Source of the DNA: Actinospica robiniae DSM 44927
GTDB taxonomy: Bacteria; Actinomycetota; Actinomycetes; Streptomycetales; Catenulisporaceae
Assembly: GCF_000504285.1 (NCBI RefSeq)
Contig: NZ_KI632511.1
Span: forward strand, 8,662,154 to 8,726,153
Length of the DNA: 64,000 nt
Reading direction: 5' to 3'
In this document: positions 12,032 through 51,003 of the stretch, one piece after another
How positions within the stretch are numbered: the first letter of the stretch is position 1
Layout of the letters: each line of letters begins with the position of its first letter
The notes under the pieces: generated by a model
What the model saw: only the letters and a program-made list of their open reading frames with translations
Told to the model about the DNA's origin: nothing
Databases searched by the model: none
Made by a program: the position numbers and the translations under genes

Positions 12032-12033
12032 CC

Positions 12034-25978: not shown

Positions 25979-28900
25979 GTGCTTCTCGTGTCACCGACCG
26001 AAGCCGGCGGGCCGCTGTCCGTCGCCGTGGTCGGTGTCGCCTCGCTGCTCCCCGGCTCCTCCGACGTGCGCGGATTCTGGCGCGACGTGGTGGCCGGCCG
26101 GGATCTGCTGAGCGAGGTGCCGCCGAGCCATTGGCTGATCTCCGACTATCACGACCCTGATCCCTCCGCCCCCGACCGGACCTACGCGCGCCGCGGGGCG
26201 TTCCTCTCCCCGGTCCGCTACGACCCCATCCGCTACGGCACGTCGCCCGCGGTGTTGTCGGCCACTGACACGGCGCAACTGCTCGCCCTGCCCGTCGCCG
26301 AGAGCGCGCTGCGCGACGCCACCGGGGGCGACCTCGGCCGCGTCGACGGCGAGCGGGCCGGCGTGGTCGTGGGCACCGGCGCGCTGGAGCTCCTGCTGCA
26401 GATGGCCTGCCGGATGCAGCGCCCGGTCTGGCTGAACGCGCTGCGGGAGTGCGGCGTGCCCGAGCCGGAGGCGCAGCGGATCTGCGCGAGGATCGCAGAG
26501 CATTACGTCCCGTGGCAGGAGGCGACGTTCCCGGGCCTGCTGGCCAACGTGATCGCGGGCCGAATCGCCAACCGGCTCGACCTGCACGGCGCCAACTTCG
26601 CCGTGGACGCGGCCTGCGCAAGCTCGCTGGCGGCACTCTCCTGCGCCGTGAACGAACTCGAACTCGGACGTGCGGACCTGATGCTGGCCGGCGGCGTCGA
26701 CACGTTCAACGACATCACCATGTTCACCTGTTTCTCCAAGACCCCCGCGCTCTCCCCGACCGGCGACTGCCGTCCGTTCTCCGACCACGCGGACGGCACG
26801 ATGCTGGGCGAGGGACTGGTGTTCTTCGCGCTCAAGCGCTTGGCGGACGCCGAGCGCGACGGCGACCGGGTCTACGCCGTGTTGCGCGGGCTCGGCGCGT
26901 CCTCGGACGGCTCGGGCAACGCGGTCTACGCGCCGGCTCCGGCGGGGCAGGCCAGAGCCCTGCGACGGGCGTACGCGCAGGCCGACTACGCGCCGCGGAC
27001 GGTGGAACTGGTGGAGGGCCACGGCACCGGCACGCCCGCCGGGGACGCGGCCGAGGTCGCCGCCCTCGCCGAGGTGTTCGGCCCGGCCGAGCGGCCCTGG
27101 TGCGCCCTCGGCTCGGCGAAATCCCAGTTCGGGCACACGAAATCCGCCGCGGGCGCGGTCGGACTGCTCAAGGCGGTCCTCGCCCTGCATCATCGAGTCC
27201 TGCCACCGACGATCAAGGTGGACCGGCCCAGCGCGGCGCTGACAGCGTCATCCAGCCCTTTATACATCAACACCAAGGCGCGGCCGTGGGTGCGCGGCAC
27301 GGACCATCCGCGACGGGCCGCCGTCTCCAGCTTCGGCTTCGGTGGCAGCAATTTCCATGTCACGCTCGAGGAGTACCTGCCGGGCACGAACGGCCGACAT
27401 CACCCGCGGCTGAAAACCGACGCGACCGAGTCCACTCTCACCGCTGTGGACGACGGCCGCGGCGCGCCCGGCAAGGTCGCCTTCCTGTTCTGCGGCCAGG
27501 GAGCTCAGTACCCGGATATGGGCGCCGACTTGGCCATGGCGTTCCCGGCGGCGCTCAGTGCGTGGGACGAGCTCGCGACGGACCGCTACGACGGCATCGC
27601 TTTGCACGAGGTCGTGCTGCCGAGGCCGGCGTTCTCAGACCACGAACGAGCGAGTCAACGGGAGCTGCTGACCGCGACCGAGTGGGCGCAGCCGGCGCTC
27701 GCCGTCACGTGTGCGGCACAGCTGCGGCTGGTCGCGCAACTCGGCCTGCGGCCCGATTGCGTGGCTGGGCACAGCCTCGGCGAACTGGTGGCCTTGGCCG
27801 CGGCCGGATGCCTCGACGAGCGATCCCTGGTCGCACTCGCGCGACGCCGCGGCGAGCTGATGCGCGACGCTGCGGACCAGCCCGGCGCCATGCTCGCCGT
27901 CTTCGCGGACGCCAAGGAGGCCGCCGAACTCGCTGCCGACCGCGACGACGTCTGGGTCGCGAACCTCAACTCCCCGACCCAGACAGTGCTTTCGGGCACG
28001 GCGGCGGGTATCGACGAGGTCGAACGACGCGCCGAAGCCGGAGGCGTGGCGGTGCACCGATTGGCGACCGCCACGGCCTTTCACAGCCCTCTGGTATCAG
28101 CGGCGAGCGCGCCATTGCGGGAGTTCCTCGGCGCCATCGACGTGTCCGCGCCCCGCCTTCCCGTCTACGGGACCAGCGATGCGAGCCAGTACTCGAATGA
28201 TCCGGACGCGGTACGTGCCCGCGTCGCCGAGCAGGTCGGCGAACCGGTGCGGTTCGTCGACCAGATCGAGGCGATGTATGCCGACGGCGTCCGCACGTTC
28301 ATCGAGTTCGGCGCGGGTTCGGCGCTCACCGGCATGGTCGGTCAGATCCTCGACGGCCGGGATCACCTCGCTGTCGCGCTCGATCAGCGCGGCCTCCCCG
28401 GCGTGGCCGCGTTCCAGGAGGCGTTGGGGCGGCTCGCGGCTCGCGGCGTGCCCTTCGACGCCGGGGCACTGACACCCGCGGAGGAGCCCGCCCCGCCCGA
28501 CGAGCGACCGAGCTCGGGGATGACCGTCGAACTCGTCGGCAGCAACTACGCAAGGCCCTATCCGCCGCCCGGCGGTGAAACGGAGCGTGCGATGCCCAAC
28601 AACCCGCCCGAGCAGCTTCCCGCGCCGATGACGCCCGTGAGCACGGTGGTGGCCGCGCCCGTGCCGGTACCCGCGCCCGCGCCCGCCGCGGGGTCGGACT
28701 CCTGGATCGGCGCGCTGCAGGAGATCCAGCGCCAGACCAGCGAGGCCCACGCCGCGTACCAGCACGCCTTGGCCGACGGACACGCCGCCTACCTGCGTAC
28801 CAGCGAGGCGACGCTGTCCGGCATGATCGCAGCCCTCGACGGCGCGGTCCGCGTCCCGGTGAGCTCCCGCCCCCTGCTGCCGACGCTCGCCCCGCCGTCC

Positions 28901-29335: not shown

Positions 29336-29421
29336 TCGAATTCACCCTGTGCCGCTTCGTCCCCGCACTGCTGCCGAAGCCGGCTTCCGGACTCGCGCTG
29401 CCGGGTCTTTTCCGCGGCACA

Positions 29422-31482: not shown

Positions 31483-31497
31483 ACACAGGAGCCAGCT

Positions 31498-37400: not shown

Positions 37401-37857
37401 CGTCCAGGTGTTCGACGGCGAGCGACTGTTGCTCGCCTACCGCCTCGTCGAGGTGCTCGTGCCCCTCGGCCCGCTGGCCGGGCTCGGTTCCCGGGAACGC
37501 GCGGCGTTCCTTCGCGACCGGGAGTACGTGCCCGGCGCCGGCTTGTCCACGTGCGAAGACGGCGTGACGCGGCTGCGCCTCGAGGACGTCGAAGCCCTCG
37601 AATGGTTCCCCGGCACCGTCGCAGCTCTCTACAACCTCCCCTCCGGCACCGACCGGCTCGCCGAGGTGGCCGTGCGCGACCACATCGCCCGCCTCGCCGA
37701 AGTGCACCCGAGCGGGTTGCTCGTGACGATGACGGTAGACCTCGCCACGGTCACGGCCGTCGGCCGCCCGGGCGAGGTCTACCGCGTCGTGCTCGTGCGC
37801 ACGGAAGGTGCGATCGAGGTGCGCGAGGCCGTCACTTCCGCCGCGTCATCGAGATGA
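31498..37857 (+). CDS. PUFA synthase subunit C: KS-CLF-AT-DH-DH-DH
   Basis: 2119 aa from TTG 31498 (AGGAG upstream). Ketosynthase: Cys135 in DAACASSL, His271 in HATGT, His307 in GHAMTAAG. Chain-length-factor-like KS at about 400-620 with GASFATDAD where the Cys would be. Acyltransferase with Ser726 in GYSSGES. FabA-like double hotdogs with GHFVGDPCMPGTLMLDG (about 1287) and RSHFFQDPVQPGSLGIEAM (about 1647). A third, polyketide-type dehydratase begins at VADHRPTWTLPALP (about 1763) and reaches HQGLLDATLH. The last 95 residues are conserved-looking but unassigned. The plan resembles myxobacterial Pfa3 without its C-terminal acyltransferase. The 3' end overlaps the COX-like gene by 26 bp. Confidence 0.93.
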   Translation: MRFVPIAIVGRGCVLPGAESPSALWDLVASGGCALTHLADGRWRMPLDAVVPRHAPHDIGGYVASPGDAEQWTLEAATQALDEAGPDRPEPGRSGLALGWLTLPGEAGVPGASPASNCAQALGFGAGSIALDAACASSLYALKIACDRLHDGAADLMLAGGVSAADPLLIQAGFTALSALSPTGRSRPLHRDADGLVPAEGAALVALMRLADAQARGIPVLGIVRGVGLSNDGRSEGGLLVPSEAGQKRAMYAAYAAAGVAPESVTLLECHATGTARGDAAEVRSSAYVFSEASDLVIGAVKANIGHAMTAAGAVGILKVLGAIEHGIRPAMAGRQDERINDLQGSRLRSPERNEPWNGVRRAAVSAFGFGGNNAHVIIDAPELAPIPAPRRRCEPREVAVVAKQTASGLGEPATFELEGLRIPPSDLKAALARHVLIFETARAAAQGIDLLAERTQVLVTTGCDPAIRRYTEGLRRPDATVMTSAQVVGFLTNMTANRISSQLGLSGASFATDADVLALAARAISTGEADAALVGSVDDAAAVLVLKRLDHARRDGDPILAVLHEPSIWHVFSGEDRAGVLAALDNGQESRGGPARLVIVAADGQLPERARQARRWLLGQAPKPRWAAYRDEPLPGRIAAVYPGGAAAYVGMGAQLGLVFPEHVADLVRRCPQIVDVAGWVNEGGQRPSDTISCVWGAAYFAHLHTAITRDVLGIGFEAALGYSSGESTALTALGAWQDLDGLVRDLRASPLFTRDLAGSYDAVPGRAWKTYLVTLPAEALTEAARGEAGVYLMAVNSPGSCTFGGDPSACERVSARLGAGHVFPLDYDLAIHAPVVEAVRDQWYRLHLRPTTPVPGISFYGCAAASMYELDDAGAATANTAQAVGTLDFRGTVENAWADGVRIFIEHGPSGGCTEWIAQTLGDREFLAVSLDGPGTSDIDNLGNAVAALIAAGVDVDDARLETRLREARTQKAIEPVRGLNPLHEHHELVTGRHRDFIRLLIERHAGFLAQREKISALLSPTVLFDRADLEYLAVGAVSKLFGPTFAAQDGYARQTRMPAPPMLLADRVLRIDAVPASIGAGTIQTQTDVRADSWYLDPCGRMPAGLLVEAGQADLLLISWLGADLLNRGERVYRLLGCEITYHASPPHPGETLTFDISIDDHAEHGGVRLFLFHYDCHVDGDPRLSVRNGQAGFFTDAELRETRGVVWDRPALPEPTALRRFDREQIRAFAEGRLGDEVGAHVRTPRPAGPEFLLFDEVEAFDVDGAYVRATLAIRPDSWFFEGHFVGDPCMPGTLMLDGAFQLMAFHLSASGCTAGRDGWRFEPVPEHTCRISCRAQVIPESKTLTYELFVKGFEQGEQNYPTLVADVLCSVDGVKAFLAEGLAVRLVPDWPLDQWRWLGGLADHVEPKPAVFGLESLLACAWGRPSEMMGSVLAPMDDGRRVARLPGPPYHFMSRIVELGAGTLVAEYDVPAAAWFWDEGGGTTMPLCVLLEVALQPCGWLALYTGDIPNAPSELLFRNLGGQGTFGDVRRDTRVLRTEIRLLEISKTGAMIIDAFDVRVWADERLVADLRSDFGFFPPAAFADQPGLPGPIWGDTQAPAIAVRENLGPMLSLIDRITGYWPNERRIRAEKDIAPEDWYFRSHFFQDPVQPGSLGIEAMLQLLQCFMMHSGLAAPDAVFEPSLAPQTVTWKYRGQVVPHDRVTVIEVEVTQARPGYAVADAWLSVGGRTIYHATGLGLRADASGAFDELLDPAIEPWVADHRPTWTLPALPMMSVVDRLAAAAGHSIAGLRDIRLTRWIMLDKPVQLRGRASAGIVELEHDGEVVASAVIADVVQPPDRPARLADPVPTELPYPRGAVFHGSAFHYLTALTVGSNGASGTLDAARGSVPRGRLHQGLLDATLHAIPHDELWRWSDRIRPGHVGYPYRLPRMDFFGDLPSTGELRVEARFAGFDADLEILPTFDVQVFDGERLLLAYRLVEVLVPLGPLAGLGSRERAAFLRDREYVPGAGLSTCEDGVTRLRLEDVEALEWFPGTVAALYNLPSGTDRLAEVAVRDHIARLAEVHPSGLLVTMTVDLATVTAVGRPGEVYRVVLVRTEGAIEVREAVTSAASSR

Positions 37858-39400: not shown

Positions 39401-39407
39401 GGCCCTC

Positions 39408-40700
39408 CTACCCAAGCTGCAGCCGGTAACGGTCGGGGAAGATGGCGTCGAAGACGATGTCCTCGTCCGGGATCGGCGCCGCGCCGCGCCGCAGCAGCCG
39501 GCGCACCGCCTCCGGGATGATCACCTGGGCGAGGTGCACGCCGAGGCAGTCATGGTGGTGGCCGGTGCCGAAGTGCAGGTGGTGGTACTGCGGGCGGTTG
39601 AGCCGGAACTGCTCTGGTTCGGGCACCGCCTCCTCGTCGTTCATCGCGGAGGCGAGCGCGCACAACACCACGCTACCCGCCGTGACGACGGTCGCGTGGG
39701 AGGTTCCCGCAGCCAGTAGGTAATCGTGTTCGCACAGCCGCGGGGGCATGAGCCGGAAGAAGGTGTCCAGACGCAGCGCCTCCCAGACGTACGGGTCGAA
39801 CTCCGCCGCGTCCGCCTCACGAGCCGCCCTGGTCGCGGCCGCGTGCTGTTCGGGCCGCAGCATCAGCTGTCGGGTCGCCAGCGCCATGGCGGCCGGGGCG
39901 CTTTCGACGAAGCCGAGGGAGAGGCCGGCCGCGTTCACGGCGATCCGCTCGTCGTCGAAGCCGTGAGCGGGTATCGGCGCGCTGGCGAGGCGGCCGAAGA
40001 CGTCGTCGTGGCCTTCGGCCTCCGGGCCGCTTTCCGTCGGCCCCGCGCGCCGGCGGCCGGGACCGGCAGGCAGCAGCGCGCGACGCCGGGCCAGCTCCGC
40101 CCGCAGGTAGTCCATCAGCTCCGCGCCGGACGCCACCGCAGCGGCGTGCAACGCCTGGTCGGCCAGCGGATTCGCGTAGCAGTCCTTGATGATGTCGCGC
40201 ACCCAGTGGGCCAGGGTCGCCGACTCCAGGCCGCGATAGCCGAAGTAGTCCTCGCATACGCGCAGCGCCACCGGCTGGAACAGGTCGCCGACGACGTCGA
40301 GCGGCGACGATGCGGCGTCCAGGCACTCGTCCGCGTAACGGCCGGCCAGGGCCCGCACGACCGGGACGTCGCGCCGGTCGAGCATCACCTGCATCAGGCC
40401 ACGCTCACGCCAGTTGAGCGCCGTCGCGTCCCGGGAGAGCATGAAACCGCTGCCCAGCGCCGCGTCGAGCTGCGGGCTGGTCGGCCGGACGGTGAAGACC
40501 TTCTCGCGTCCGAGCACCTCGTGGACGTCGGCGAACTTGGTGACGAGCGTGTAGGCGGGGGTGACGAAGATCGGGCAGTCGGCCCGGAGCTCGGCGAACA
40601 GGCCGCGCCAGTCGCCGCGGATCCAGCCCGCCACCATCGCGGCCGCCTTCATCGGATCGTGTGAAGCGACGCGCTGGTACTTCGTCAGGTATTCGCTCAC
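39408..40700 (-). CDS. Unusual cytochrome P450 paired with the COX-like enzyme
   Basis: About 430 aa from GTG 40700; the frame is open upstream to 40850, so the start is uncertain. ExxR is E307-A-L-R310. The heme loop reads FGTGHHHDCLG with Cys385, one residue longer than the usual FGxGxHxCxG. The I helix (NAAGLSLGFVESAPAAMA) lacks the acid/alcohol pair used for O2 activation. That loss is typical of P450s that rearrange hydroperoxides or endoperoxides (prostacyclin and thromboxane synthases, CYP74) rather than hydroxylate. It is translationally coupled to the COX-like gene (TAG then ATG 7 nt later), which suggests it acts on that enzyme's product. Confidence 0.85.
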   Translation of the reverse strand: MSEYLTKYQRVASHDPMKAAAMVAGWIRGDWRGLFAELRADCPIFVTPAYTLVTKFADVHEVLGREKVFTVRPTSPQLDAALGSGFMLSRDATALNWRERGLMQVMLDRRDVPVVRALAGRYADECLDAASSPLDVVGDLFQPVALRVCEDYFGYRGLESATLAHWVRDIIKDCYANPLADQALHAAAVASGAELMDYLRAELARRRALLPAGPGRRRAGPTESGPEAEGHDDVFGRLASAPIPAHGFDDERIAVNAAGLSLGFVESAPAAMALATRQLMLRPEQHAAATRAAREADAAEFDPYVWEALRLDTFFRLMPPRLCEHDYLLAAGTSHATVVTAGSVVLCALASAMNDEEAVPEPEQFRLNRPQYHHLHFGTGHHHDCLGVHLAQVIIPEAVRRLLRRGAAPIPDEDIVFDAIFPDRYRLQLG

Positions 40701-40788
40701 GGATTCATTCAAGTCCGGCAGGTCTGCCGATGAAATCGTCCTTTGGATCTGTGCAATTCGGCCTAGGCCAGGTTTCCTATGGGCTGGG
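40701..40788. promoter_or_regulatory. Divergent promoter region between P450/COX and pfaD operons
   Basis: About 90 bp, noticeably AT-richer than its surroundings (ATCGTCCTTTGGATCTGTGCAATTC region), between the likely P450 start at 40700 and the PfaD start at 40789. It must contain promoters for both directions. No exact -35/-10 pair is convincing. Confidence 0.45.
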
Positions 40789-42432
40789 GTGATCGCACCG
40801 CCCGACAATGTCGCCGTGAGCGCCGAACTGTTGGCAGCGGTGAGTTCCACGGACCGGACGTCGGAGGATCAGGGACCTGTTTTCGAAGGGGCGCGGATGC
40901 TCGGCCTGATCGGCCGGATCCGCGAGCCCTTGTTCGTCGTGCGCGTGCCGACCCGGAGCCGGCCGGGCCTGGCCGCGACGCCCGGCGCGGGGGAGTGCCG
41001 CATGGTGGCGCAGCTGCCGCCGCTGCGCCCGGAGTCGCTGGGGGACGAGTCGTTCTGCGCCGCGCACGGGACCCGTTTTCCGTACGTGGCCGGCGAGATG
41101 GCCAACGGCATCGCCACGGTCGAGCTCGTCGCCGCCATGGCCCGGGCCGAGATGCTCGGATTCTTCGGCGCCGCCGGGCTTTCCGTCTCCCGGGTGGAGC
41201 AGGAGATCACGCGGCTCGCCGCGTCGCTCGGAGGCCGGCGCAACTGGGGCGTCAACCTCATCCATTCGCCCGCGGAGCCGCGCACCGAGGCCGACGTGGC
41301 CGATCTGCTGGCCGACCGGCGCGTGCCAGCGGTCTCGGCGTCCGCGTTCATGGAACTGACGCCGCCGATCGTGCACGTCGCCGCGCACGGGTTGACCCAG
41401 GGCTCTGATGGCCGGGTGCGTCGGGCCGCCCGGATCTTCGCCAAGGTCTCGCGGCCCGAGGTGGCCGCCGCGTTCATGGCGCCGCCGCCTGCCGCGATCC
41501 TGCGCGAGCTGGTCGACCAGGGCCGGCTGACCGTGCAGGAGGCGGCCCTGGCGGCGCGGGTGCCCGTGGCCGAGGACGTCACGGTCGAGGCCGACAGCGG
41601 CGGCCACACCGACAATCGGCCGTTGGTCGCGCTCGTGCCGGAGATGCTCGCGCTCGCCGAAGCGGCGCGGCTGCGGCACGGCTTCGACCGCCCGATCAGG
41701 ATCGGCGCGGCCGGCGGACTCGGCACCCCGGCCGGGGTGGCCGCCGCGTTCGCGCTCGGCGCGGCCTACGTCGTGACCGGCTCGATCAACCAGGCCGCTC
41801 GCGAATCAGGGCTCTCGCCGGACGGCAGACGTATGCTCGCCGAGGCCGGGCCGGCCGACGTCGTGATGGCGCCGGCCGCAGACATGTTCGAGCTCGGAGT
41901 GCGTCTCCAAGTCCTGCGACGCGGCAGCATGTTCGCCTTTCGGGGCGAGCGGCTGTATCAGATCTATGTCACTCACTCCGCGTGGAGCGAAGTGCCGGAG
42001 GCGACGCGGGGCAAGATCGAGCGCGAGATCCTGCGCGCGGGCTTCGACGAGGTCTGGCAGGAGACGCGGCGCTTCTGGCTCTCGCGCGACTCCGAACAGG
42101 CAGCCCGCGCCGAACGCGACGAGAAGCACCGGATGGCGCTGGTCTTCCGCTGGTACCTGGGCATGGCGAGCCGCTGGGCGATCCAGGGCGCGACCGACCG
42201 GCGGACGGACTACCAGATCTGGTGCGGACCGGCCATGGGCGCGTTCAACCGGTGGGTGGCGGGCGGATTCCTCGCCGACCCGACCGAGCGGTCCGTGGTG
42301 CAGATCGCCCGCAACCTGCTGGAAGGCGCCGCCGTCGTGACGCGCGCGCAGCAGGTGCGCAGCTTCGGCGTCGCGGTGCCCGCAGCCGCGTTCGCGTTCA
42401 CGCCGCGTCCGTTCGGCGAACGGGAGGCGTGA
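40789..42432 (+). CDS. pfaD: PfaD-type trans enoyl reductase
   Basis: 547 aa from GTG 40789 (GTG 40816 is an alternative). The PfaD hallmarks are GEMANGIATVELVAAMARA, GFFGAAGLS, GVNLIHSP, VEADSGGHTDNRPL (FMN/active-site loop), IGAAGGLGTPAGVAAAFALGA (phosphate-binding glycine loop) and KIEREILRAGF and IWCGPAMGAFNRW near the C-terminus. It is an FMN TIM-barrel enzyme of the nitronate-monooxygenase type that reduces selected double bonds during PUFA synthesis. Its stop overlaps the lipase start (TGATG), placing both in one operon. Confidence 0.93.
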   Translation: MIAPPDNVAVSAELLAAVSSTDRTSEDQGPVFEGARMLGLIGRIREPLFVVRVPTRSRPGLAATPGAGECRMVAQLPPLRPESLGDESFCAAHGTRFPYVAGEMANGIATVELVAAMARAEMLGFFGAAGLSVSRVEQEITRLAASLGGRRNWGVNLIHSPAEPRTEADVADLLADRRVPAVSASAFMELTPPIVHVAAHGLTQGSDGRVRRAARIFAKVSRPEVAAAFMAPPPAAILRELVDQGRLTVQEAALAARVPVAEDVTVEADSGGHTDNRPLVALVPEMLALAEAARLRHGFDRPIRIGAAGGLGTPAGVAAAFALGAAYVVTGSINQAARESGLSPDGRRMLAEAGPADVVMAPAADMFELGVRLQVLRRGSMFAFRGERLYQIYVTHSAWSEVPEATRGKIEREILRAGFDEVWQETRRFWLSRDSEQAARAERDEKHRMALVFRWYLGMASRWAIQGATDRRTDYQIWCGPAMGAFNRWVAGGFLADPTERSVVQIARNLLEGAAVVTRAQQVRSFGVAVPAAAFAFTPRPFGEREA

Positions 42433-44618
42433 TGGCGGTGGAACCCGCCCGCCCGCTGCCGCCCCGCTTCGTCTCGCCGCATGAACGCTCCCACCACGAG
42501 GAGATCGAGCAGTACAAGAACGTGGCGCGGGAGCTGTCCGCCATCGCGCAGACGGTCCACGAGATCTCCCAGCGTACGACCGCCCTGTTCGCCGCTACCG
42601 CGCCGCCGCATACGCCGCGCGAGGCCGGCGGCGACTACGCACGCAAGGCCACGTTGCTTAGGACACTGACGCGCGAATCAGGTCTCGGGTTCGCCTTTGC
42701 CGGCGGCCGGCTCGGCACGGCCGGCGCTTTCGTCGGCGATCTGCTCGGGCGCTCGAGCCTGGCCACGTCGCTGCTCGTGCTCTCGTTGCGGCTGCGGCTG
42801 AGCGCATTGCAGCTGGTGCACCCGGAGATGACCGAGGACCCGAAGCTCGCCCACTTCATCGAGGCCGTACACGCCCACCACGAGCTCGAGATCCTGCGCG
42901 CGCTGCGCACCCTTTTCGACGACGAGGGCGCGGTGCGGGCGCTCAGCTCACTCGCGCCGATGTTCGCCGAGATCCTCAGCCTCAAGGCGTTGCTGGACCG
43001 CAACCCCTTCAACGACGCGACCGCCTGGCGCATCGCGACCGGCGCGGCCGGGCCGTCGGCGGACCCGTTCTTCGGCTTCAGCGTCAAGATGATGACATCG
43101 CAGGACCGCGGCCCCGGCTCCGCCCGGCCGGTCCCCACCGCGCCGCACGAACGCAAGCTGCTGGCCCGGCGCGGATCGCTGCTCGGCTTCCTGCGCAACA
43201 TCGCATTGCTGGGCAACGACGGACGCATCGTCATCCAGACCGTGCGCGGACCCGACGGCGAGGAGCGCTACGTGGTGCAGGTGCCGGGGATGCGGCCGTC
43301 GTTCCGCGGCCACGGATCGCCCGCCTCGCTCGTCGGCGCCTTCCGCTCCTCGCTGGACGCGGCATCGTCCTACACCGGGGCGTTGCGTTCGGCCATCGCC
43401 CAATACGGCATCCCCGACGGCGCCGAGCTCGCCCTGATCGGGCACAGCGCGGGCGGACCGGCCGCGCTGAATCTGGCACAGGACTCTGACTTCTGCGCGC
43501 GCTACACCGTGACGCACGCGATCGCCGTCGGCGCGCCGGTGGACCAGAAGCGCGCCGCGGATCCGCGCACCTTCGTCGCGACCATCACCAACCAGCACGA
43601 CATCGTCCCCACACTCGACGGCATCGACGCAGGGAGCTGCTTCGACCTGCACCCCGACTGGTACGTCGTCGACTACACCGAAGTCACCCACCAGTTCCCG
43701 GAATGCCACGGCATCGAGCACTACCTGCGCGACCTCGCGTACCTGCTCACCGAGGCACGCGAATACATCGAGGAGCAACTCGGCCCCTATGGCGGCGACG
43801 TCCTGCGCACGCAGCTCTATCAGACCTATGAGCGTGAGCCCAAGCCCGCGGGCTACCCCTTCCTGCCGGTGCCCACCAGCCGCGCCGCGCTCGGCTCGGG
43901 CAGCATCGAGCTCCCGCTCACGTGTGCCTACGGCAGCGGACTGCTGGCGTTCTACCCGGTGGACCGCTCGCTGGCCGGCTGCCTCGCCGAGGACGGCTCG
44001 CGGACCGTGCCGCTCGGGCTGGCCGGCCGGGCGCTGATGGCGGTGTTCGCGGCCGAACAGCGCGAAGGCATCCTGCGGCCGCACCGCATGCTCGCCTTCG
44101 GCGTCCTCGTCGACAGCCCCTGGCGCACCGGCCGGCTCGCCTGGATCCATCTGTTGCGGCGCGCCGACCAACGCGGCGTCGGGATACGCCTGCTCGGCCT
44201 GGCCGTCTCCACCGACCAGGCCGTGGACGCGTACCGCGACCTGTGGGGCCTGCCCGCGTTCCGCGCCCGGGTCAGCCTCTCCGTGGGGATGCTCGGCGCG
44301 CGCGCCCTCGCCGACGCCGACGACGGCACCCACATCGGCTTCGGCGGACTGCTCGGCCCCGGCGCCCCGGCCCCGTCCCAGGACGTCGTCGTCTACTCCC
44401 GCCGGGGCCGGGAGACCCTGCGTTCCCAGCTCGACTTCGCCGGGCGCATGCAGCTGCACTCCGGCGCCCTCGTCCGGCTCGCCCTACGGACCCCCAACTC
44501 GGCCCCGGCCGAGCGGCTGCGCGAACTCGGCCTCGACCGGACCCGGCCGCTGCTGTGCCTCAGCGCCCGCGGCCTGCGCGCCCGGATCGGCGCGGGCGCC
44601 GCGCTGCCGGGCGAATGA
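42432..44618 (+). CDS. Serine lipase/esterase with C-terminal acetoacetate-decarboxylase-like domain
   Basis: 728 aa from ATG 42432. A helical N-terminal region (about 1-230) precedes an alpha/beta-hydrolase unit of the class 3 lipase type: Ser339 in LIGHSAGGPAALNLA, Asp in NQHDIVPTLDG and His in FPECHGIEHYL are the likely triad. From about residue 490 a beta-rich domain follows (LTCAYGSGLLAFYPVDRSLAGCL, PHRMLAFGVLVDSP) that recalls the acetoacetate decarboxylase fold, a tentative match. No signal peptide. Because it is coupled to pfaD and adjacent to the oxygenase genes, it may release polyunsaturated acyl chains from glycerolipid, or the finished product from its carrier. Confidence 0.75.
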   Translation: MAVEPARPLPPRFVSPHERSHHEEIEQYKNVARELSAIAQTVHEISQRTTALFAATAPPHTPREAGGDYARKATLLRTLTRESGLGFAFAGGRLGTAGAFVGDLLGRSSLATSLLVLSLRLRLSALQLVHPEMTEDPKLAHFIEAVHAHHELEILRALRTLFDDEGAVRALSSLAPMFAEILSLKALLDRNPFNDATAWRIATGAAGPSADPFFGFSVKMMTSQDRGPGSARPVPTAPHERKLLARRGSLLGFLRNIALLGNDGRIVIQTVRGPDGEERYVVQVPGMRPSFRGHGSPASLVGAFRSSLDAASSYTGALRSAIAQYGIPDGAELALIGHSAGGPAALNLAQDSDFCARYTVTHAIAVGAPVDQKRAADPRTFVATITNQHDIVPTLDGIDAGSCFDLHPDWYVVDYTEVTHQFPECHGIEHYLRDLAYLLTEAREYIEEQLGPYGGDVLRTQLYQTYEREPKPAGYPFLPVPTSRAALGSGSIELPLTCAYGSGLLAFYPVDRSLAGCLAEDGSRTVPLGLAGRALMAVFAAEQREGILRPHRMLAFGVLVDSPWRTGRLAWIHLLRRADQRGVGIRLLGLAVSTDQAVDAYRDLWGLPAFRARVSLSVGMLGARALADADDGTHIGFGGLLGPGAPAPSQDVVVYSRRGRETLRSQLDFAGRMQLHSGALVRLALRTPNSAPAERLRELGLDRTRPLLCLSARGLRARIGAGAALPGE

Positions 44619-44643
44619 ACCCGCTGAAAGGTGGCTTGGACCC

Positions 44644-46407
44644 TTGACCGCGACCGGCATCCTCGACCTTTTCGCCGCCAACCTCGAGCGCGACCCCGAC
44701 CGCGCGCTGTTCACCTTCGTGGACGCGCGCGGCCAGGACACGGCCGCGTACTCGGCCGACGCGCTGGCCCGCCGGGCCGAAGGCGTGCGCGCCCTGCTCG
44801 ACGACCTCGGCTGGGTCGCCGGCGATCGCGCGATCCTGGTCTACCCGCCCGGGCCCGACTTCGTCGTGGCGCTGGTCGCCTGCCTGATGGCGGGCGTGGT
44901 CCCGGCCGCGGTGCTGCCGCCCGGGCCGGCCGGCGGGCGCGGCGGCGAGAAGGCCTTCGGCGCCGCGGTCCAGGACTGCCGGGCGCGCGGGATCCTCACC
45001 TCGACCGACTTCGACCAGCTGCGCCGGCTCGCCGTCGACTCCGGCGCGTTCCCCGGCTTCGTATGGCCGGACGTGGCCTGGCACTGCACCGATACGGCCG
45101 GCGAGCGCGCCGTGTCCCTGCGCCGCTGGCACCGGCCCGCCGTTCCGGGCGAGGCGGCCGTGCTCCAGTACACCTCCGGCTCCACCGCGACCCCGCGCGG
45201 CGTGATCATGACGCACGGGAACCTGCTGGCCGAGATGAGCAGCAACGCCGTGGACTTCCGCCTCGGCCGGGACACCGTCGGGGTCTCCTGGCTGCCTCAG
45301 TACCATGATTTCGGGCTCGTCAACGCGATCCTCAGTGCTCTGAGCGGCAACATGCGGCTGTACTCGTTGTCCCCGTTGGACTTCGTGCGCCGCCCGGCGC
45401 TCTGGTTCGAGACGATGTCGCGGGTCGGCGCCACGCTCACCGCGTCGCCCAACTTCGGCCTCGACCTCGCGGTGCGCAAGACCACCCCGGAGCAGCGCGC
45501 CGCCTGGGACCTCGGTCCGCTCGCGACGCTCGTGTGCGCGGCCGAGCCGATCCGGGCCGCGACAGTGGACCGCTTCCTCGGCGACTTCGCCGGCTCGGGT
45601 CTGCGCCCGGAGTGCTTCTGCCCGACCTACGGGCTGGCCGAGGCGACCGTCAGCGTCAGCTCGTGGGGCCGCAGCCGGGTCGCCGTCGACGCCGAGGCGG
45701 TCGCCCAGGGCCGGGTCGTGCGCGTGCCCGAGCAGCGCGCCGACGGCGCCCGGGCCAACGTCTACATCGGCTGCGGCGGGATCACCAAGCCCGGCTCGCG
45801 CGTGCGCATCATCGACCCGGAGACGCGTCTGCCCTGCCCGGTGGACCGGATCGGCGAGATCTGGGTGGACTCGGCCACCAAGGCCGCGGGCTACTTCGAC
45901 CGGCCCGAGGAGAGCCGCGACGCCCTGTACGCCCGGGTCGACGGCGAATCCGACCCCCGCCGCTACCTGCGCACCGGAGACCTCGGCTTCTTCGCCGAAG
46001 GAGAGCTCTTCGTCACCGGCCGGCGTAAGGACGTGATCATCCTGCGGGGGCGCAACCACTACGCCGAGGACCTCGAGGAGAGCGTGCGCCGCTGCCATCC
46101 GGCGATCCGGCCCGGCGGCGTCGCCGCGTTCGCGCTGGAGACGGCCGGGGAGGAGAGCACGGCCGTGATGGTGGAGGTCGCCCTCTTCGAGGGCTGCGAC
46201 GCCGTGGCGGCGGACGGCGTGGCCGCCGCCGTCCGCCGCCGGCTGGCGCTCGATCACCAGATCGGCGCCGCCACGGTCGTGCTGGTGCCGCCCGGCACCG
46301 TGCCCAAGACCACCAGCGGCAAGGTGCGCCGGCACGCCTGCCGCGCGCTGTACGAGGCCGGGGAGCTCGAGACCGCGATCACCGTGCCGTCGGGTGTCCG
46401 GCGGTGA
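44644..46407 (+). CDS. Fatty acyl-AMP ligase (FAAL)
   Basis: 587 aa from TTG 44644. AMP-binding motif LQYTSGSTATPRGVIMTH, SWLPQYHDFGLV, CAAEPIRAATVDRF, PTYGLAEATV, YLRTGDLGFF and KDVIILRGRNHYAEDLE are FAAL-type, as is the C-terminal TSGKVRRHACR. FAALs activate fatty acids as adenylates and pass them to an ACP instead of CoA. The free ACP gene at 46379-46633 overlaps its 3' end on the opposite strand and is the obvious acceptor. It could prime the synthase or recycle a released acid. Confidence 0.93.
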   Translation: MTATGILDLFAANLERDPDRALFTFVDARGQDTAAYSADALARRAEGVRALLDDLGWVAGDRAILVYPPGPDFVVALVACLMAGVVPAAVLPPGPAGGRGGEKAFGAAVQDCRARGILTSTDFDQLRRLAVDSGAFPGFVWPDVAWHCTDTAGERAVSLRRWHRPAVPGEAAVLQYTSGSTATPRGVIMTHGNLLAEMSSNAVDFRLGRDTVGVSWLPQYHDFGLVNAILSALSGNMRLYSLSPLDFVRRPALWFETMSRVGATLTASPNFGLDLAVRKTTPEQRAAWDLGPLATLVCAAEPIRAATVDRFLGDFAGSGLRPECFCPTYGLAEATVSVSSWGRSRVAVDAEAVAQGRVVRVPEQRADGARANVYIGCGGITKPGSRVRIIDPETRLPCPVDRIGEIWVDSATKAAGYFDRPEESRDALYARVDGESDPRRYLRTGDLGFFAEGELFVTGRRKDVIILRGRNHYAEDLEESVRRCHPAIRPGGVAAFALETAGEESTAVMVEVALFEGCDAVAADGVAAAVRRRLALDHQIGAATVVLVPPGTVPKTTSGKVRRHACRALYEAGELETAITVPSGVRR

Positions 46408-46633
46408 GCCGGGTCACCAGGTCTCCGAGGCGGTCCTGCATGGTGATGGCCGTGTGCCCGGTGGTGAGGTCCACATCGAACCGCTCCTCGAGCGCCACCG
46501 CCAGCTCCACCAGGCCGACCGAGTCCAGGTCGAGGTCGGCGAGCCGGGTGTCCGGCCCGAGCCCGTCGGCGGGCACGGCGAACTCGGTCGTCAGCAAGGT
46601 GGTGAGGGAGTCGAATGCGAAGTTCTCGTTCAT
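46379..46633 (-). CDS. Free acyl carrier protein
   Basis: 84 aa from ATG 46633. The phosphopantetheine Ser lies in LDLDSVGLVELAVALEE (about residue 38) and the fold length is normal for a single ACP. The gene converges on the FAAL gene with a 29-bp overlap and diverges from the PlsB-like gene. It is a likely carrier for the FAAL-activated acyl group. Confidence 0.9.
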   Translation of the reverse strand: MNENFAFDSLTTLLTTEFAVPADGLGPDTRLADLDLDSVGLVELAVALEERFDVDLTTGHTAITMQDRLGDLVTRLTAGHPTAR

Positions 46634-46719
46634 GTTCTGATGGTTCTTCAGGCGAACGACGGCGGCCAGCGGGAACAAGGGACTGGAACGGAAGGACCAT
46701 TGCCCGCCGGGCCCGGCCC
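46634..46719. promoter_or_regulatory. Divergent promoter region, ACP/acyltransferase operon
   Basis: 86 bp between the ACP start (46633, minus) and the GTG at 46720. It begins with an AT-richer tract (TTCTGATGGTTCTTCAGGCG) and contains GGAACGGAAGGACC just upstream of the acyltransferase. No consensus promoter is clear. Confidence 0.35.
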
Positions 46720-48162
46720 GTGCGTCTCGCGGTGCGCCGGCGGCCCTGGGCGGAGGCGCTGCTCGCCGCGCTGACCCGGCCCCTGCTGCGCCACCTGCGC
46801 GAGGTGCAGGTGGACGACTCGGCGCTGCGGGCGCTGCGCGAGCTCGCCGAGCGCGACCCGATCGTGTTCCTGCCGGCGCATCGCAGCTACCTGGACTCGC
46901 TGGTGCTGGCGCGGGCGCTGGGCAAGGCGGGGTTCGCCCTGCCGTGGCGGCTGGCCGGAGCGAACTTGGCGTTCTGGCCGCTCGGCGCGATCGGGCGGCG
47001 CAGCGGCATGATCTTCATCCGGCGCGAGTTCGGCACCGATCCGGCCTATCACGCGGCCGTACGCAGCTGCCTGGCCGATCTGCTCGTTCGCGGACACAGC
47101 ATCGAGTGGTACCCGGAGGCCGGACGTAGCCGCACCGGGCGGCTACGCAAGCTGCGTCCCGGGATGCCGCGCCTGCTCGTGGCCGCCTACGAGGAATCAG
47201 GCATCGAGGATGTACAGGTGGTGCCGGTCTCGGTGGTCTACGACTCGTTGCCGGACATGGAGGCGGTCACCGCAGAGGACGCCGGGGCGATCAAGCGGCC
47301 CGAGGGATTGCGAGCCCTGATCGCGTATCTGCTTGCCACACGGACGCTCGGGCCGCGTCGGGCGTGGATGACGTTCGGTGCGGCCGTCTCTCTGCGCGAG
47401 GTGACGCGCGACGCGGCCGGGGAGTGGGGCGCCGCCAGAGTCCTGACCAGGCGCGTCGCCGCCGGCCTGCGCGATGCGACGCAGGTGACGGCGGAATCGT
47501 TGCTGGCACTCGTCTTCTCGGCGAGTGACGGTGAACCGATCGGCGCCGCTGACCTCCTCATGCAGTCCGGTGTGCTGGTCGAGTACGCCCGTCAGCGGCG
47601 GATTCCGCTTTGCCGGCGCTGTCCCATCGAATCAGCGCTCGATGGCCTGGTGCGGACGAGGGTGCTGACTCGCCAGGCCGACGGATACCGCGTCACGCCG
47701 GGTTGCGAGCGCATCCTGGCCTACCATCGCAACGTCGCGGAGCACTGGTTCCTGCCCCGTGCGGCCGCCGAGCTCGTGGCCGATGGAGTCATCACCGCGA
47801 AGCGGATCAGGACTCTGCTCGCCCAGGCGGATGGCTTCGAGCTGCGCGTGGAAGCGGAAACGTCGGCGCTCGACGGAGGCTGGGAACGTCAGCCGTTCCT
47901 GCTCGCCCCGCGCCTGCTCGGCCCGATCCTCGCGGCGTACTACGACGTCGCGGTGAGCCCGGCCACGCGCGCCGCGCCTTCCGCCGAGCTGCGGGACGCG
48001 GCGCTCGCGCTGCTCGGAGCCGAAGGTCTGCTGGGCCGCGGCGTCGATGCGGCGGCTCGTGACGACCTCATCCGCGAGCTCGCCTGTCTGGTGCTGAGAC
48101 TCCGCGCGATGGCGGCACACGATGCCGGGCAGCACGCCGGGACCGCCGATGTCCGACGCTGA
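46720..48162 (+). CDS. PlsB-type glycerol-3-phosphate acyltransferase homologue
   Basis: 480 aa from GTG 46720; ATT or an upstream ATG at 46615 are alternatives, but the ATG would overlap the ACP gene. Acyltransferase motif I is HRSYLD (His and Asp catalytic), followed by FIRREFG (motif II), EAGRSRTGRL (motif III, usual form EGGRSRTG) and VPVSVVYD (motif IV). These are PlsB/DHAPAT-type rather than PlsC. The C-terminal half is helical, as in the family. It overlaps the next gene by 14 bp. It probably puts the first acyl chain on glycerol-3-phosphate. Confidence 0.85.
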   Translation: MRLAVRRRPWAEALLAALTRPLLRHLREVQVDDSALRALRELAERDPIVFLPAHRSYLDSLVLARALGKAGFALPWRLAGANLAFWPLGAIGRRSGMIFIRREFGTDPAYHAAVRSCLADLLVRGHSIEWYPEAGRSRTGRLRKLRPGMPRLLVAAYEESGIEDVQVVPVSVVYDSLPDMEAVTAEDAGAIKRPEGLRALIAYLLATRTLGPRRAWMTFGAAVSLREVTRDAAGEWGAARVLTRRVAAGLRDATQVTAESLLALVFSASDGEPIGAADLLMQSGVLVEYARQRRIPLCRRCPIESALDGLVRTRVLTRQADGYRVTPGCERILAYHRNVAEHWFLPRAAAELVADGVITAKRIRTLLAQADGFELRVEAETSALDGGWERQPFLLAPRLLGPILAAYYDVAVSPATRAAPSAELRDAALALLGAEGLLGRGVDAAARDDLIRELACLVLRLRAMAAHDAGQHAGTADVRR

Positions 48163-49570
48163 CGAGCGTGTCGCGGCGATCCTGCGCGGTCCGGAAGGGC
48201 CGCAGGTCGCGGCGTTCTTCGACCTCGACGGCACGCTGATCGACGGCTTCTCGGCCACGTCCTTTCTGCGCGGCGCCGGGATCCCGCTGCCGCGTCTGGC
48301 CCGGGCGGCCTTCGGACGCGGCCCGCTTCCCCCGCTGCGGCTGCTCGCCGGAAGCGTCGTCGGCGAGCCGAGCGACCGGGACATCCACTTCGCGCACGAG
48401 GCTGCGCTGCGAGCCGGCGAGGGCATCCCAGAGCACGAACGGGCGGCGCTGGCAGAGCGCGTATTCGCCGGGCACCTCGCAGCCCGCCTACGTCCGGAGA
48501 TGTGGGCGCTGGTACAGGCTCACCGGCGCATGGGCCACCGCGTCGCCATCGTCACGGCCGCCAGTCGCTGGCAAGCCGAGCCACTCGCGACGAGCCTCGG
48601 CGTCGAAACCGTCCTGTGCACGGAGGTGGCGTCGTCTCCGTTGCGTGGTGAAGACAAAGCGGTCGCAGTGCTCGGATTCGCTTTGCGTCACGACATCGAC
48701 CTCGTCGCCAGCCATGCCTACGGCGACTCGGGCGACGACGTGCCCTTTCTGCTGGCCTGCGGCAATCCTTGCGCCGTCTGCCCCCGCAACGCCCTGGCCC
48801 GCGCCGCACAGGAGCGCGGCTGGAGCATCCTGCGCGCCGAGTCCCGGCCGGCGCTCGGGCCGGTGGCCGCCGCGCGGTCGATCGCTGCGTGGAGCGGGGC
48901 GCTAGCCGGTATCGGCGCGGGACTCGGGCTGGCCACAGCCGGACTCGACCGCCGCGACGCCGCCGAACTCGGCATGGCGTTGGCGAGCCGCAGCTGCCTC
49001 GAACTCGCCGGCGTCCGTGTCAGCGTGCAAGGTGGCGAGCACCTCGGCGGCCGGCCCGCGATGTTCCTGTTCAACCACCAGAGCTGGCTCGACGTCGCGG
49101 TCATGGCCCGGCTGCTGCGCCGGGACTACAGCAGCCTCGCCAAACAGGAACTCAGCCGCGTCCCCGGCCTTGGCGGCTTCGGTCGCAACTTCGAGATCGT
49201 CTTCATCGACCGCGACGCCACGGCCGCGTCCTCGGACTATTTCCGCCCCGTGCTCGACCTGCTGCGGCGCGGCGTCTCGGTGGCCGTCGCGCCCGAAGGG
49301 ACCCGCTCGTCCACGCCCATGCCAGGCCCCTTCCACAAGGGCGCCTTCCTCGCCGCCAGGAAGGCACGCGTCCCGCTGGTGCCGGTCGTCATCCGCAACT
49401 CGGGCCGGCTGATGCCGCGCGGCAGTAAAGCCGTGCGCCCGGGCCGCATCGACGTCGTCGTACACCGGCCGATCGACCCGACGCGCTGGGCGATCGGCCG
49501 ATTCGGCGCCCACATCGACGAGCTGAGGGACCTGTACATCCAGACCCTCACCACCGGAGCCGCCCGATGA
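48149..49570 (+). CDS. HAD phosphatase-PlsC acyltransferase fusion
   Basis: 473 aa from ATG 48149. The N-terminal HAD domain has FFDLDGTLIDG (nucleophile Asp), VTAAS (motif II), Lys in GEDKAV and GDSGDDVPFL (motif IV). After a helical segment the PlsC domain has NHQSWLD (HxxxxD), FIDRD and PEGTRSS. Fusions of this type carry a 1-acyl-glycerol-3-phosphate acyltransferase plus a phosphatase, so one protein could make phosphatidate and dephosphorylate it to diacylglycerol. Its stop overlaps the WS/DGAT start (ATGA). Confidence 0.9.
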   Translation: MSDADERVAAILRGPEGPQVAAFFDLDGTLIDGFSATSFLRGAGIPLPRLARAAFGRGPLPPLRLLAGSVVGEPSDRDIHFAHEAALRAGEGIPEHERAALAERVFAGHLAARLRPEMWALVQAHRRMGHRVAIVTAASRWQAEPLATSLGVETVLCTEVASSPLRGEDKAVAVLGFALRHDIDLVASHAYGDSGDDVPFLLACGNPCAVCPRNALARAAQERGWSILRAESRPALGPVAAARSIAAWSGALAGIGAGLGLATAGLDRRDAAELGMALASRSCLELAGVRVSVQGGEHLGGRPAMFLFNHQSWLDVAVMARLLRRDYSSLAKQELSRVPGLGGFGRNFEIVFIDRDATAASSDYFRPVLDLLRRGVSVAVAPEGTRSSTPMPGPFHKGAFLAARKARVPLVPVVIRNSGRLMPRGSKAVRPGRIDVVVHRPIDPTRWAIGRFGAHIDELRDLYIQTLTTGAAR

Positions 49571-51003
49571 GGCCGTCCGAGTACTTCGGCGAGAAGGCCT
49601 GGGCTCTGCCGCGGCGGCCCGACCCGCTCAGTACCCTGATGTGGCGCTGCGAGGAGGACCCGGCGCTGCGGCCGGCGCTGGTCGGCGTGATGCTGTTGGA
49701 CCGCCCGCCCGACCCGCGGCGCTTCCTCGCCGGGCACGAGTGGGCCACCCGGATGATCCCGCGCCTCCGAGACCGGCTCGTCGCACCGCTGCTGACGCCC
49801 ACGATGCCGATCTGGAGCCCCGACCCGGATTTCGACGTCACCCGGCACCTGCACCGGGCCGCGCTGCCGCAGCCCGCCGACCGGCGCGCGGTGTTCGACC
49901 TCGCCGGCCGGCTCGCCGCCGCGCCCTTCGACCTTGGCCGCCCGTTGTGGGAGAGCGTCCTGGTCGAGGACGTCCGCGACGAAGCCGAGCCGTATCACGC
50001 CGCATGGCTGGTGAAGATCCACCACTGCCTCGCCGACGGGCCCCTCATCGGGTTCTGGCTCAACACGCTCCTGAGCCGCACCCGCAGTCCACGTCCCGAC
50101 AAGCCTCAGCCGCCAGCTCCGCCGCGCTGGCTCGACACTCCGCTGACCGAGCACCTGATCGGCCCGCTCGCCGACGAAGCCGCGCCGGCCGCGAAACGAC
50201 TCGCCCACGACGCGTTCGCGGCAGCACGATCCCCGATCCGCAAGACGATCGAGCTCGCCACCGTGGCCGCCAAGCTCCTGGAGGTGACGACGCGCCCGGC
50301 CGGCAAACCGTCCCCGCTGCTCCGGCCGCGCGGCTCGACCCGGCGTTTCGCAGGCGTCCCGATCGACCTGTACCGCCTGCGCGCGACCGCGCGCTCCTTC
50401 GGCGTGCCCGTCAACGCGGCGTACTGCGCCGGGCTGTTCGCCGGAATCCGGCTCTACCACGAGGCCCACCGGGTGACCGTCCCCAGCGTCCCGGCGGCGA
50501 TCACGATGCCCGCCGTCCACACCGGTCCGCGCGGCGGAAACCGTTTCAACGGCGGCAAATTCTCCGGCCCCCTCGACGATCAGGACCCGAAGTCGCTCTG
50601 CCGCACCATCGCCCAGCGCCTCGCCCGCGCCGCCCCGCCCTTCCCGCCCGCCGCCCTCGATCTCGTGCTCGGCTGCGTGAACCAGCTCCCGAACACGGCC
50701 TTGCTGCCGATGGCCCGCAGCCTGGGCCGCAGCAGCGACATCCAGATCAGCCACGTGGTCACCCTCGGCCGCGAAGCCTACGTCTCCGGTGCCCGCGTCG
50801 AGCAGATCTGGGGCTTCGCCCCCGCCCCCGGCTGCGCCGCCATGGCCCTGCTGCTGACCAGGAGAAGCCAAGGCACCCTCGGCCTCACCCTCGACACCGC
50901 CGCCATCCCCGACCCCGCGACCTTCGCCTCCTGCATCGTGGTCGGCTTCGCCGAGGTACTCGGCTGTGGTGCCGGACTCGGCGAACCATCGGCCTTGAGA
51001 TGA
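49567..51003 (+). CDS. Wax ester synthase/diacylglycerol acyltransferase (WS/DGAT)
   Basis: 478 aa from ATG 49567. The active-site motif is HHCLADG (HHxxxDG) at about residue 155, preceded by FDLGRPLWESVLVED. The family's C-terminal segments ITMPAVHTGPRGGNRFNGG and VTLGREAYVSGARVEQIWGFAP are present. The enzyme esterifies diacylglycerol or an alcohol with an acyl group. It ends the acyltransferase operon and would store the synthase's acyl chains as neutral lipid. Confidence 0.9.
   Translation: MRPSEYFGEKAWALPRRPDPLSTLMWRCEEDPALRPALVGVMLLDRPPDPRRFLAGHEWATRMIPRLRDRLVAPLLTPTMPIWSPDPDFDVTRHLHRAALPQPADRRAVFDLAGRLAAAPFDLGRPLWESVLVEDVRDEAEPYHAAWLVKIHHCLADGPLIGFWLNTLLSRTRSPRPDKPQPPAPPRWLDTPLTEHLIGPLADEAAPAAKRLAHDAFAAARSPIRKTIELATVAAKLLEVTTRPAGKPSPLLRPRGSTRRFAGVPIDLYRLRATARSFGVPVNAAYCAGLFAGIRLYHEAHRVTVPSVPAAITMPAVHTGPRGGNRFNGGKFSGPLDDQDPKSLCRTIAQRLARAAPPFPPAALDLVLGCVNQLPNTALLPMARSLGRSSDIQISHVVTLGREAYVSGARVEQIWGFAPAPGCAAMALLLTRRSQGTLGLTLDTAAIPDPATFASCIVVGFAEVLGCGAGLGEPSALR

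Follow-up and report, generated by a model that had tools for sequence, protein, structure and literature searches.

A predicted 10S-dioxygenase-type oxylipin cassette within a polyunsaturated fatty acid synthase-like locus of Actinospica robiniae

Bacterial cyclooxygenases (COX) appear as putative sequences only in the relevant part of a 2015 review (PMC4420034). The cyanobacterial 10S-dioxygenases (10S-DOX), as described in the sections of PMC13049297 devoted to them, use oleate and linoleate and are marked by an FTDSF distal helix, a Y-I-x-x-I-T-P-Y motif and a terminal motif ending in I-G-x-D-A-F-x-Q-A; in the same sections, Arg is given at the position of Val291 in DOXs (COX numbering is used throughout). 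We analyzed a window of 64,000 nucleotides (positions 8,662,154-8,726,153 of the 9.92 Mb single-contig genome) of Actinospica robiniae DSM 44927, in which genes for a COX-like haem dioxygenase and a cytochrome P450 lie among genes of the Pfa type (polyunsaturated fatty acid [PUFA] synthase), together with a serine hydrolase gene and acyltransferase genes. A first-pass annotation, made from the letters alone, had read this locus as a bacterial arachidonate cascade. Domain and profile searches found every part that it named in its place, and its interpretation stands insofar as the locus would produce an unsaturated fatty acid and oxygenate it, while the naming after COX and arachidonate does not. 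On balance we favor a reading in which an unsaturated fatty acid is turned into an oxygenated derivative by the enzymes of the locus, a desaturase-fed cassette having become PUFA-synthase-fed in the Actinospica lineage. A 10-DOX-type actinobacterial oxylipin cassette set within a PUFA-synthase locus describes it better than does a bacterial arachidonate cascade.

The dioxygenase and its conserved neighbors

The COX-like protein matches PF03098, and its closest solved structures are those of COX-2 and COX-1 (E-values in Table 1). Across the 81 DOX rows aligned, Tyr385, His388, Tyr348 and Gln203 are kept without exception (81/81), as is YRWH (81/81). The distal His207 is replaced by Asp in 81/81 rows (motif FAQWFTDGF), Val291 by Arg in 77/81, Gly526 by Ile in 70, Val in 10 and Glu in 1, and Ser530 by Ala in 78/81, the remaining 3/81 having Ser. 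Because FAQWFTD, one of the two patterns by which the loci were fetched, itself contains the Asp, the sample may be enriched for it; among DOX relatives obtained free of the patterns, Asp was present in 8/8 (five of them at 38-43% identity) and His stood at the Arg (Val291) position in 2/8. For four remote peroxidases (L005-L008, 24-28%), no alignment was obtained at the distal position. The 10S-DOX motifs listed in the part of PMC13049297 that includes its Table 2 recur here as the distal Asp, Y-I-x-x-I-T-P-Y and a terminal I-x-x-D-A-F-x-Q-A, and the terminal motif has 23 residues, the same length as in 10S-DOX, with 7/14 named residues identical to the published motifs. By these sequence criteria the COX-like enzyme is a 10S-DOX-type dioxygenase, with a regiochemistry that is predicted only. 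A prostaglandin-type cyclooxygenase was rejected on account of Asp at His207, Arg at Val291 and the lack of Ser530; the first-pass terms "COX" and "arachidonate cascade" are thus not supported in the strict sense, the residues being those of 10S-DOX and not of prostaglandin synthases.

A genome scan with two conserved peptide patterns returned 234 DOX relatives, and the best 80 loci, a set in which close relatives and the FAQWFTD motif are over-represented, were fetched. Neighbors were counted as tblastn matches >60 bits anywhere in flanks of up to 10 kb. A P450 was present at 72 of the 80 loci, a hydrolase homologue at 67 and a fatty-acid desaturase at 66, counts that include a few partial matches <200 aa (one P450, two hydrolase, one desaturase). 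Where at least 5 kb was available on both sides (68 loci), 57 held desaturase, P450 and hydrolase together, and 6 held none of them (Frankia, three Solirubrobacteraceae, Smaragdicoccus and Gloeocapsopsis). Cassette hosts include Nonomuraea, Streptosporangium, Actinomadura and Streptomyces. The desaturase, whose identity as PF00487 was checked for two representatives, is divergent from P450-DOX-hydrolase in most Streptosporangiales loci; six Streptomyces loci (L093, L094, L095, L096, L097 and L103) carry two desaturases flanking DOX, one on each side, as if for a diene. Eight cassette genomes of 7.5-13.2 Mb hold only 2-5 such desaturases each, so that adjacency of desaturase and cassette is hardly due to chance. 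DOX, P450 and hydrolase have correlated pairwise distances (r = 0.84-0.90; 0/500 permutations as high), to which shared species history contributes. Judged from these sequences, P450, DOX and hydrolase are a co-inherited cassette and not intrinsic pfa genes. Its position beside desaturases outside Actinospica is an independent pointer to an unsaturated acyl substrate, and the cassette appears to be an uncharacterised route by which bacteria make oxygenated products of fatty acids. A full-text literature search gave no description of an actinobacterial P450-DOX-hydrolase cassette among the matches listed.

Three side observations concern these loci. DOX relatives with no P450, hydrolase or desaturase in the stretch examined (L079, L082, L087, L088, L092, L098 and L100) come from Frankia, Solirubrobacteraceae, a Verrucomicrobia metagenome-assembled genome, Smaragdicoccus and a cyanobacterium. 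A FabF-like ketosynthase (KS) lies near the P450 in the six Streptomyces loci with paired desaturases; the general KS count includes unrelated polyketide synthases (PKS). A flavin amine oxidase gene (PF01593) adjoins the cassette in 13/80 loci (L027, L029, L032, L034, L037 and eight more).

The P450s were compared at the I-helix, for which 72 rows were reduced to 56 by removing 9 without an ExxR match (several of them mis-extended) and 7 without a readable I-helix. The usual Thr is absent in 55/56 rows and present in one; the I-helix pair is Glu-Ser in 29/56 (including the window), Glu-Asn in 20/56 and Gln-Asn in 6/56, with Asn therefore in 26/56. Asn at this position is named, in the P450 passages of PMC13049297, for prostacyclin synthase (PGIS), plant allene oxide synthase (AOS, CYP74) and fungal linoleate diol and epoxy alcohol synthases (LDS/EAS), where it is not indispensable. 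The residue pattern favors hydroperoxide conversion for the P450 family, less clearly for the window enzyme. A Cys loop with one extra residue (FGTGHHHDCLG) was found in the Actinospica pair only (2/62 readable rows). A fold search did not discriminate, only bacterial P450s being among the matches listed (50 rows). The true start of the window P450 is uncertain, and residues 1-39 of its model have a pLDDT <50. A P450-derived glycosyltransferase activator (TIGR04515) was considered and rejected (43 bits vs. a cut-off of 343). Outside the cassette, an open reading frame (ORF) at 21385-22671 (+) matches only the C-terminal part of P450s (profile 288-444) and is a possible remnant.

The protein first annotated as a serine lipase does have a GHSAG hydrolase in the expected place, and it also has a second domain that had gone unreported. 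It consists of a helical N-terminus, an alpha/beta hydrolase (residues 231-455) and an acetoacetate-decarboxylase (ADC) fold (484-729). No Pfam family matched it at E 0.001, and PF06314 matched the homologue from L094 just below cut-off (9.3e-07). In the AlphaFold2 (AF2) model (mean pLDDT 77.6), residues 231-455 reach a Z of only ~7-8 against hydrolases in the Protein Data Bank (PDB), and residues 484-729 a Z of 20-22 against ADC folds (best 3c8w, Z = 22.0, root mean square deviation 2.7, 214 aligned). Identity as a PKS thioesterase was rejected, since the hydrolase part scores Z ~7-8 to many families alike. GHSAG, TNQHD and CH are conserved triad-like positions across the aligned hydrolase homologues. 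Members of the acetoacetate decarboxylase superfamily use a Schiff-base lysine. In the window protein Lys is missing from the whole stretch beyond residue 471, which rules out the usual lysine Schiff base in its ADC part; of the 58 homologue rows that have the ADC part, 48 likewise lack Lys in the matching columns. In the alignment 9/67 rows have few ADC residues; four are from Acrocarpospora, from which the ADC part seems truly absent, and the remaining rows are truncated or poorly extracted.

The cassette in the Pfa locus

The window contains the full part list of a Pfa/PUFA synthase: KS, malonyl-acyltransferase (MAT), acyl carrier protein (ACP), ketoreductase (KR), dehydratase (DH), KS with chain-length factor (KS-CLF), acyltransferase (AT), FabA-type DH and PfaD. 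A motif scan found intact active-site motifs in KS1, MAT, ACP, KR, KS2, AT and two FabA-type dehydratases; the DH His motif of the KR-DH protein gave no match to the search pattern, a stretch DHRIGDRAVVP being visible in its translation. The KS-MAT-ACP protein scores 830 bits against TIGR02813 (PfaA), below the cut-off of 1010 that is set for full-length PfaA, and the AT of pfaC scores 28.1 bits against Acyl_transf_1, below the Pfam cut-off. The Pfa genes probably make a polyunsaturated fat. The nearest PfaD outside the genus (61-63%, among 60 relatives) is in G022 and G049, where pfaD lies ahead of pfaA.

Cassette and pfa genes are physically interlocked. The translational coupling proposed in the first-pass annotation is borne out for both gene pairs: 7 nt with GGAGG separate the P450 stop from the ATG of the COX-like gene, and the hydrolase ATG overlaps the pfaD TGA by 1 nt. 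The P450 gene, the COX-like gene and the small ACP gene lie on the minus strand, an orientation not mentioned before, and the 3′ ends of the COX-like gene and pfaC overlap tail-to-tail by 26 bp. The layout recurs in Actinospica durhamensis, where contig C164 (matching NZ_JAGSOG010000248.1) carries pfaC(part)-DOX-P450-pfaD-hydrolase (identities to the window: DOX 88%, pfaD 78%, hydrolase 78%, pfaC 71%, P450 69%) and ends inside pfaC, and contig C325 carries fatty acyl-AMP ligase (FAAL)-(antisense ACP)-PlsB-HADPlsC-WS/DGAT in the order of the window (65-82%; ACP 65%). Because both contigs break off where hydrolase and FAAL would meet, the join of these halves is inferred. The P450 and COX-like genes are ~50 bp apart in A. 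durhamensis and their coupling is not tight there. In the DOX tree (quick search, midpoint root, support by approximate likelihood-ratio test [SH-aLRT] only), the Actinospica pair falls in a 53-row clade (SH-aLRT 100), and a desaturase is present in 50 other rows of that clade. The desaturase was probably lost from the Actinospica cassette, with the Pfa locus in its place; the cassette may also never have had one there.

In the pathway that we propose, the Pfa synthase would supply an unsaturated or polyunsaturated acyl chain, from which the DOX, by allylic hydrogen abstraction via the Tyr equivalent to COX Tyr385 and addition of O2, would form a fatty-acid hydroperoxide and not a prostaglandin endoperoxide. 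Without the distal His of COX, the DOX would pass the hydroperoxide intact to the P450, which may rearrange it (to a diol, epoxy alcohol or allene oxide, or with chain cleavage) or hydroxylate the chain. The serine hydrolase may release substrate from lipid, or product into lipid, and the lysine-free ADC barrel may bind or process the oxylipin. FAAL, ACP, PlsB, HAD-PlsC and WS/DGAT would re-activate acyl chains for storage as phospholipid or triacylglycerol. In the Actinospica lineage, the feed of the cassette would have switched from a fatty-acid desaturase to the PUFA synthase. Chemistry and product are inferred from sequence, and no prostaglandin-like cyclisation is predicted.

Evidence against a Pfa-fed cassette, and rival explanations

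Several observations weigh against this pathway. As to linkage, the co-location with pfa genes rests on two related genomes, and the DOX tree, which is rooted at its midpoint, does not resolve where the Actinospica pair branches within its clade. A genome-wide search of A. durhamensis (940 contigs) found no close copy of the KR-DH gene (best 43% over ~146 aa), which may be unassembled or absent. Among 394 genomes in the class, DOX was found in 12 and PfaD in 47, both together in the genome studied here, G227 and G330; the latter two compare with ~1.3 expected, so that association is at chance level, in counts that may be low (E cut-offs 1e-80 and 1e-60, at most three first-look candidates scored per genome). 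As to substrate, the genome of A. robiniae has a 52% identical desaturase at a distance of 4.4 Mb (G000:C1:4262081) as a possible supplier of the DOX, and the Pfa synthase shows no tandem ACP array, a single LGxDS[IL] motif and a single PP-binding stretch having been found. The Nostoc 10S-DOX was without activity on 18:3n-6 (10S-DOX sections of PMC13049297), which makes a highly unsaturated substrate less than certain. The fatty-acid data in the part of PMC9308616 that covers Actinospica describe it as rich in iso-C15:0/iso-C16:0, with C18:0 also present; the sole unsaturated component there is the summed feature anteiso-C18:0/C18:2 of A. acidithermotolerans, which may be the Actinospica genome without DOX and pfaD. 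In that third genome (G002) neither DOX nor pfaD was found, and FAAL, HAD-PlsC and KR-DH had distant matches only. As to the P450, the distal axial I-helix residue of the window enzyme is Ser instead of Asn, so that isomerase chemistry does not follow for it, and a ferredoxin/ferredoxin-reductase-type gene adjoins DOX by eye in some Streptomyces-type loci (L023:201-1859 in G027, L086 and L089), which suits a monooxygenase P450.

The rival that survives best holds that cassette and Pfa synthase are mere neighbors, the DOX, P450 and hydrolase oxidising oleate-type monoenes from the other desaturase, and the pfa genes, FAAL and acyltransferases making a separate storage or membrane lipid. We regard it as unlikely, though a serious contender. 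It gains from the distant desaturase, from the chance-level co-occurrence, on which any genome-wide association of DOX with PfaD was dropped, and from DOX and P450 being transcribed against the pfa genes. It gains further from the absence of pfaD at cassette loci outside Actinospica in the best 80 of 234, where pfaD occurs in 1/80, that of A. durhamensis. Eight cassette genomes have a close PfaD in G414 only, on another contig, with weak matches in three more, and with the cassette so widespread without pfaD, a pfa-specific tailoring pair was rejected. What speaks against mere neighborhood is the 1-nt joining of the cassette hydrolase to pfaD, the conservation of pfaC, DOX, P450, pfaD and hydrolase together in A. 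durhamensis at 69-88% identity, and the absence of the cassette's own desaturase where pfa is present. Co-occurrence of the COX-like gene with pfa genes, for which the first-pass annotation had proposed a search of related genomes, is seen in A. durhamensis, at none of the other loci among the best 80, and at genome level no more often than by chance. Its concern that the COX/P450 pair might be an unrelated insertion is half justified: the cassette evolves apart from pfa, but its usual desaturase partners argue against a functionally unrelated insertion.

Less likely still is a conventional P450 monooxygenase that depends on redox partners, with a hydroxy or hydroperoxy secondary lipid, not a rearranged oxylipin, as the product. 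The acid-alcohol-like Glu-Ser pair of the window P450, its ordinary bacterial fold and the ferredoxin-reductase-type gene next to DOX in some Streptomyces loci are as expected of such an enzyme, but Asn replaces the catalytic Thr in 26/56 cassette P450s, Gln-Asn occurs in all 6 readable Streptomyces ones, and Asn is the residue that PMC13049297, in its P450 passages, names for hydroperoxide-cleaving P450s. A ferredoxin pattern scan returned 30/80 loci, mostly frame noise (L048, L079, L086 and L089 look real by eye), and no ferredoxin-like ORF by pattern in window positions 33001-47000. A true prostanoid-like cascade, with a cyclooxygenase endoperoxide formed from a C20/C22 PUFA and isomerised by the P450, is highly improbable: COX-2/COX-1 as closest solved structures, the retained Tyr385, His388 and Gln203 and the P450 partner are set against Asp at His207, Arg at Val291, Ile at Gly526 and Ala at Ser530, as in 10S-DOX or DOXs, and against family neighbors that are usually desaturases, not pfa genes.

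We return to the reading of a cassette fed by the PUFA synthase. Its wider form is a more tentative proposal, namely a dedicated, modular actinobacterial oxylipin pathway with a source of acyl double bonds, a 10-DOX-type dioxygenase, a P450 that processes hydroperoxides and the hydrolase-ADC fusion as its modules. Of this pathway Actinospica would hold a self-contained version, starting at malonyl units and leading to polyunsaturated lipids that are stored and oxygenated, after a desaturase-to-PUFA-synthase swap. With the P450-DOX-hydrolase cassette conserved across dozens of actinomycete genomes, bacterial COX-like enzymes acquire a pathway context, the swap predicts a substrate class, and the cassette opens to simple tests the question of whether actinobacteria make signalling-type oxylipins.

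Gene content and comparison with known systems

The genes of the locus are collected in Table 1. A promoter/terminator scan found none.

Table 1. Features of the locus, in positions of the window
Feature	Position	Strand	Support
KS-MAT-ACP protein, Pfa-type, 1118 aa	25979..29335	+	Pfam ketoacyl-synt, Acyl_transf_1, PP-binding; motifs DAACASS, GHSLG, LGIDSI
KR-DH protein, 686 aa	29422..31482	+	Pfam KR, PS-DH, PKS_DH_N; KR part of TIGR02813
pfaBC-like KS-CLF-AT with FabA-like dehydratases, 2119 aa	31498..37857	+	Pfam ketoacyl-synt, FabA (3 stretches); KS Cys, GYSSG, two HFxxDPxxPG
COX-like haem dioxygenase, predicted 10S-DOX type	37832..39400 (ORF open to 39415)	-	PF03098 (E 7e-51); COX-2 (E 4.5e-62); residues
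Cytochrome P450, upstream of dioxygenase	39408..40850	-	PF00067 (3.8e-07); ExxR, Cys loop FGTGHHHDCLG, I-helix GFVESAP; P450 fold
pfaD enoyl reductase	40897..42432	+	TIGR02814 (2.4e-184), 613 bits vs. cut-off 449
Serine alpha/beta hydrolase (GHSAG) fused to acetoacetate-decarboxylase-like domain	42432..44618	+	Triad-like positions; AF2 model and PDB matches
FAAL	44644..46407	+	PF00501 above cut-off; FAAL models strong but below own cut-offs
Small stand-alone ACP, antisense, overlapping FAAL end	46379..46633	-	PF00550 (7e-10)
PlsB-like glycerol-3-phosphate acyltransferase, start uncertain	46615..48162	+	PF01553, PF19277
HAD phosphatase-PlsC acyltransferase fusion	48149..49570	+	PF12710, PF01553
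WS/DGAT wax ester/triacylglycerol synthase	49567..51003	+	PF03007, PF06974; TIGR02946 193 bits, below cut-off 310

Outside these genes, a gene for the Rho transcription terminator (23387-25450, -) lies directly upstream of the pfa genes, and a large serine recombinase (12016-13812, +) precedes the cluster by ~12 kb, within a lower-G+C stretch. On the other side is a head-to-head ricin-lectin/GH28 (polygalacturonase-type) pair (51602-56050). Its two lectin halves are inverted copies of each other over 663 nt (97% identity; 52975-53637, 54006-54668), which looks like a recent duplication.

Among described systems, the Pfa secondary-lipid synthases of actinobacteria (types H, L, M and Q in the portion of Shulse and Allen 2011, PMC3098273, that treats them) are alike in KS-MAT-ACP, KR-DH, KS-CLF-AT-DH and PfaD, and share with the Actinospica locus the split pfaA and the fused pfaBC. 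Unlike in those synthases, the antisense P450-DOX pair of Actinospica parts pfaD from pfaC, and pfaD is joined to the cassette hydrolase. The linoleate 10S-dioxygenase of Nostoc punctiforme (B2J5P4) shares the Asp of FTDxF, Y-I-x-x-I-T-P-Y and a terminal motif of equal length; its partner is a catalase-related hydroperoxide lyase, whereas here the partners are a P450 and the hydrolase-ADC protein, and the apparent acyl source here, unlike in Nostoc, is a desaturase or a Pfa synthase.

Animal COX-P450 and fungal DOX-P450 pairs may be seen as having a bacterial, non-fused counterpart in the cassette. The vertebrate cascade of COX with prostacyclin or thromboxane synthase is alike in both enzyme superfamilies and in the order lipase-oxygenase-P450, but COX-specific residues are absent here and no endoperoxide is predicted. 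The fungal DOX-CYP fusions (linoleate diol, epoxy alcohol and allene oxide synthases), as the fungal passages of PMC13049297 present them, likewise combine a COX-superfamily dioxygenase with a P450 that often has the I-helix Asn, and would follow the same hydroperoxide-plus-isomerase logic; the Actinospica pair differs from them in consisting of two separate genes, in its bacterial-type P450 fold, in the Ser of the window enzyme and in DOX motifs that are nearer to those of 10S-DOX.

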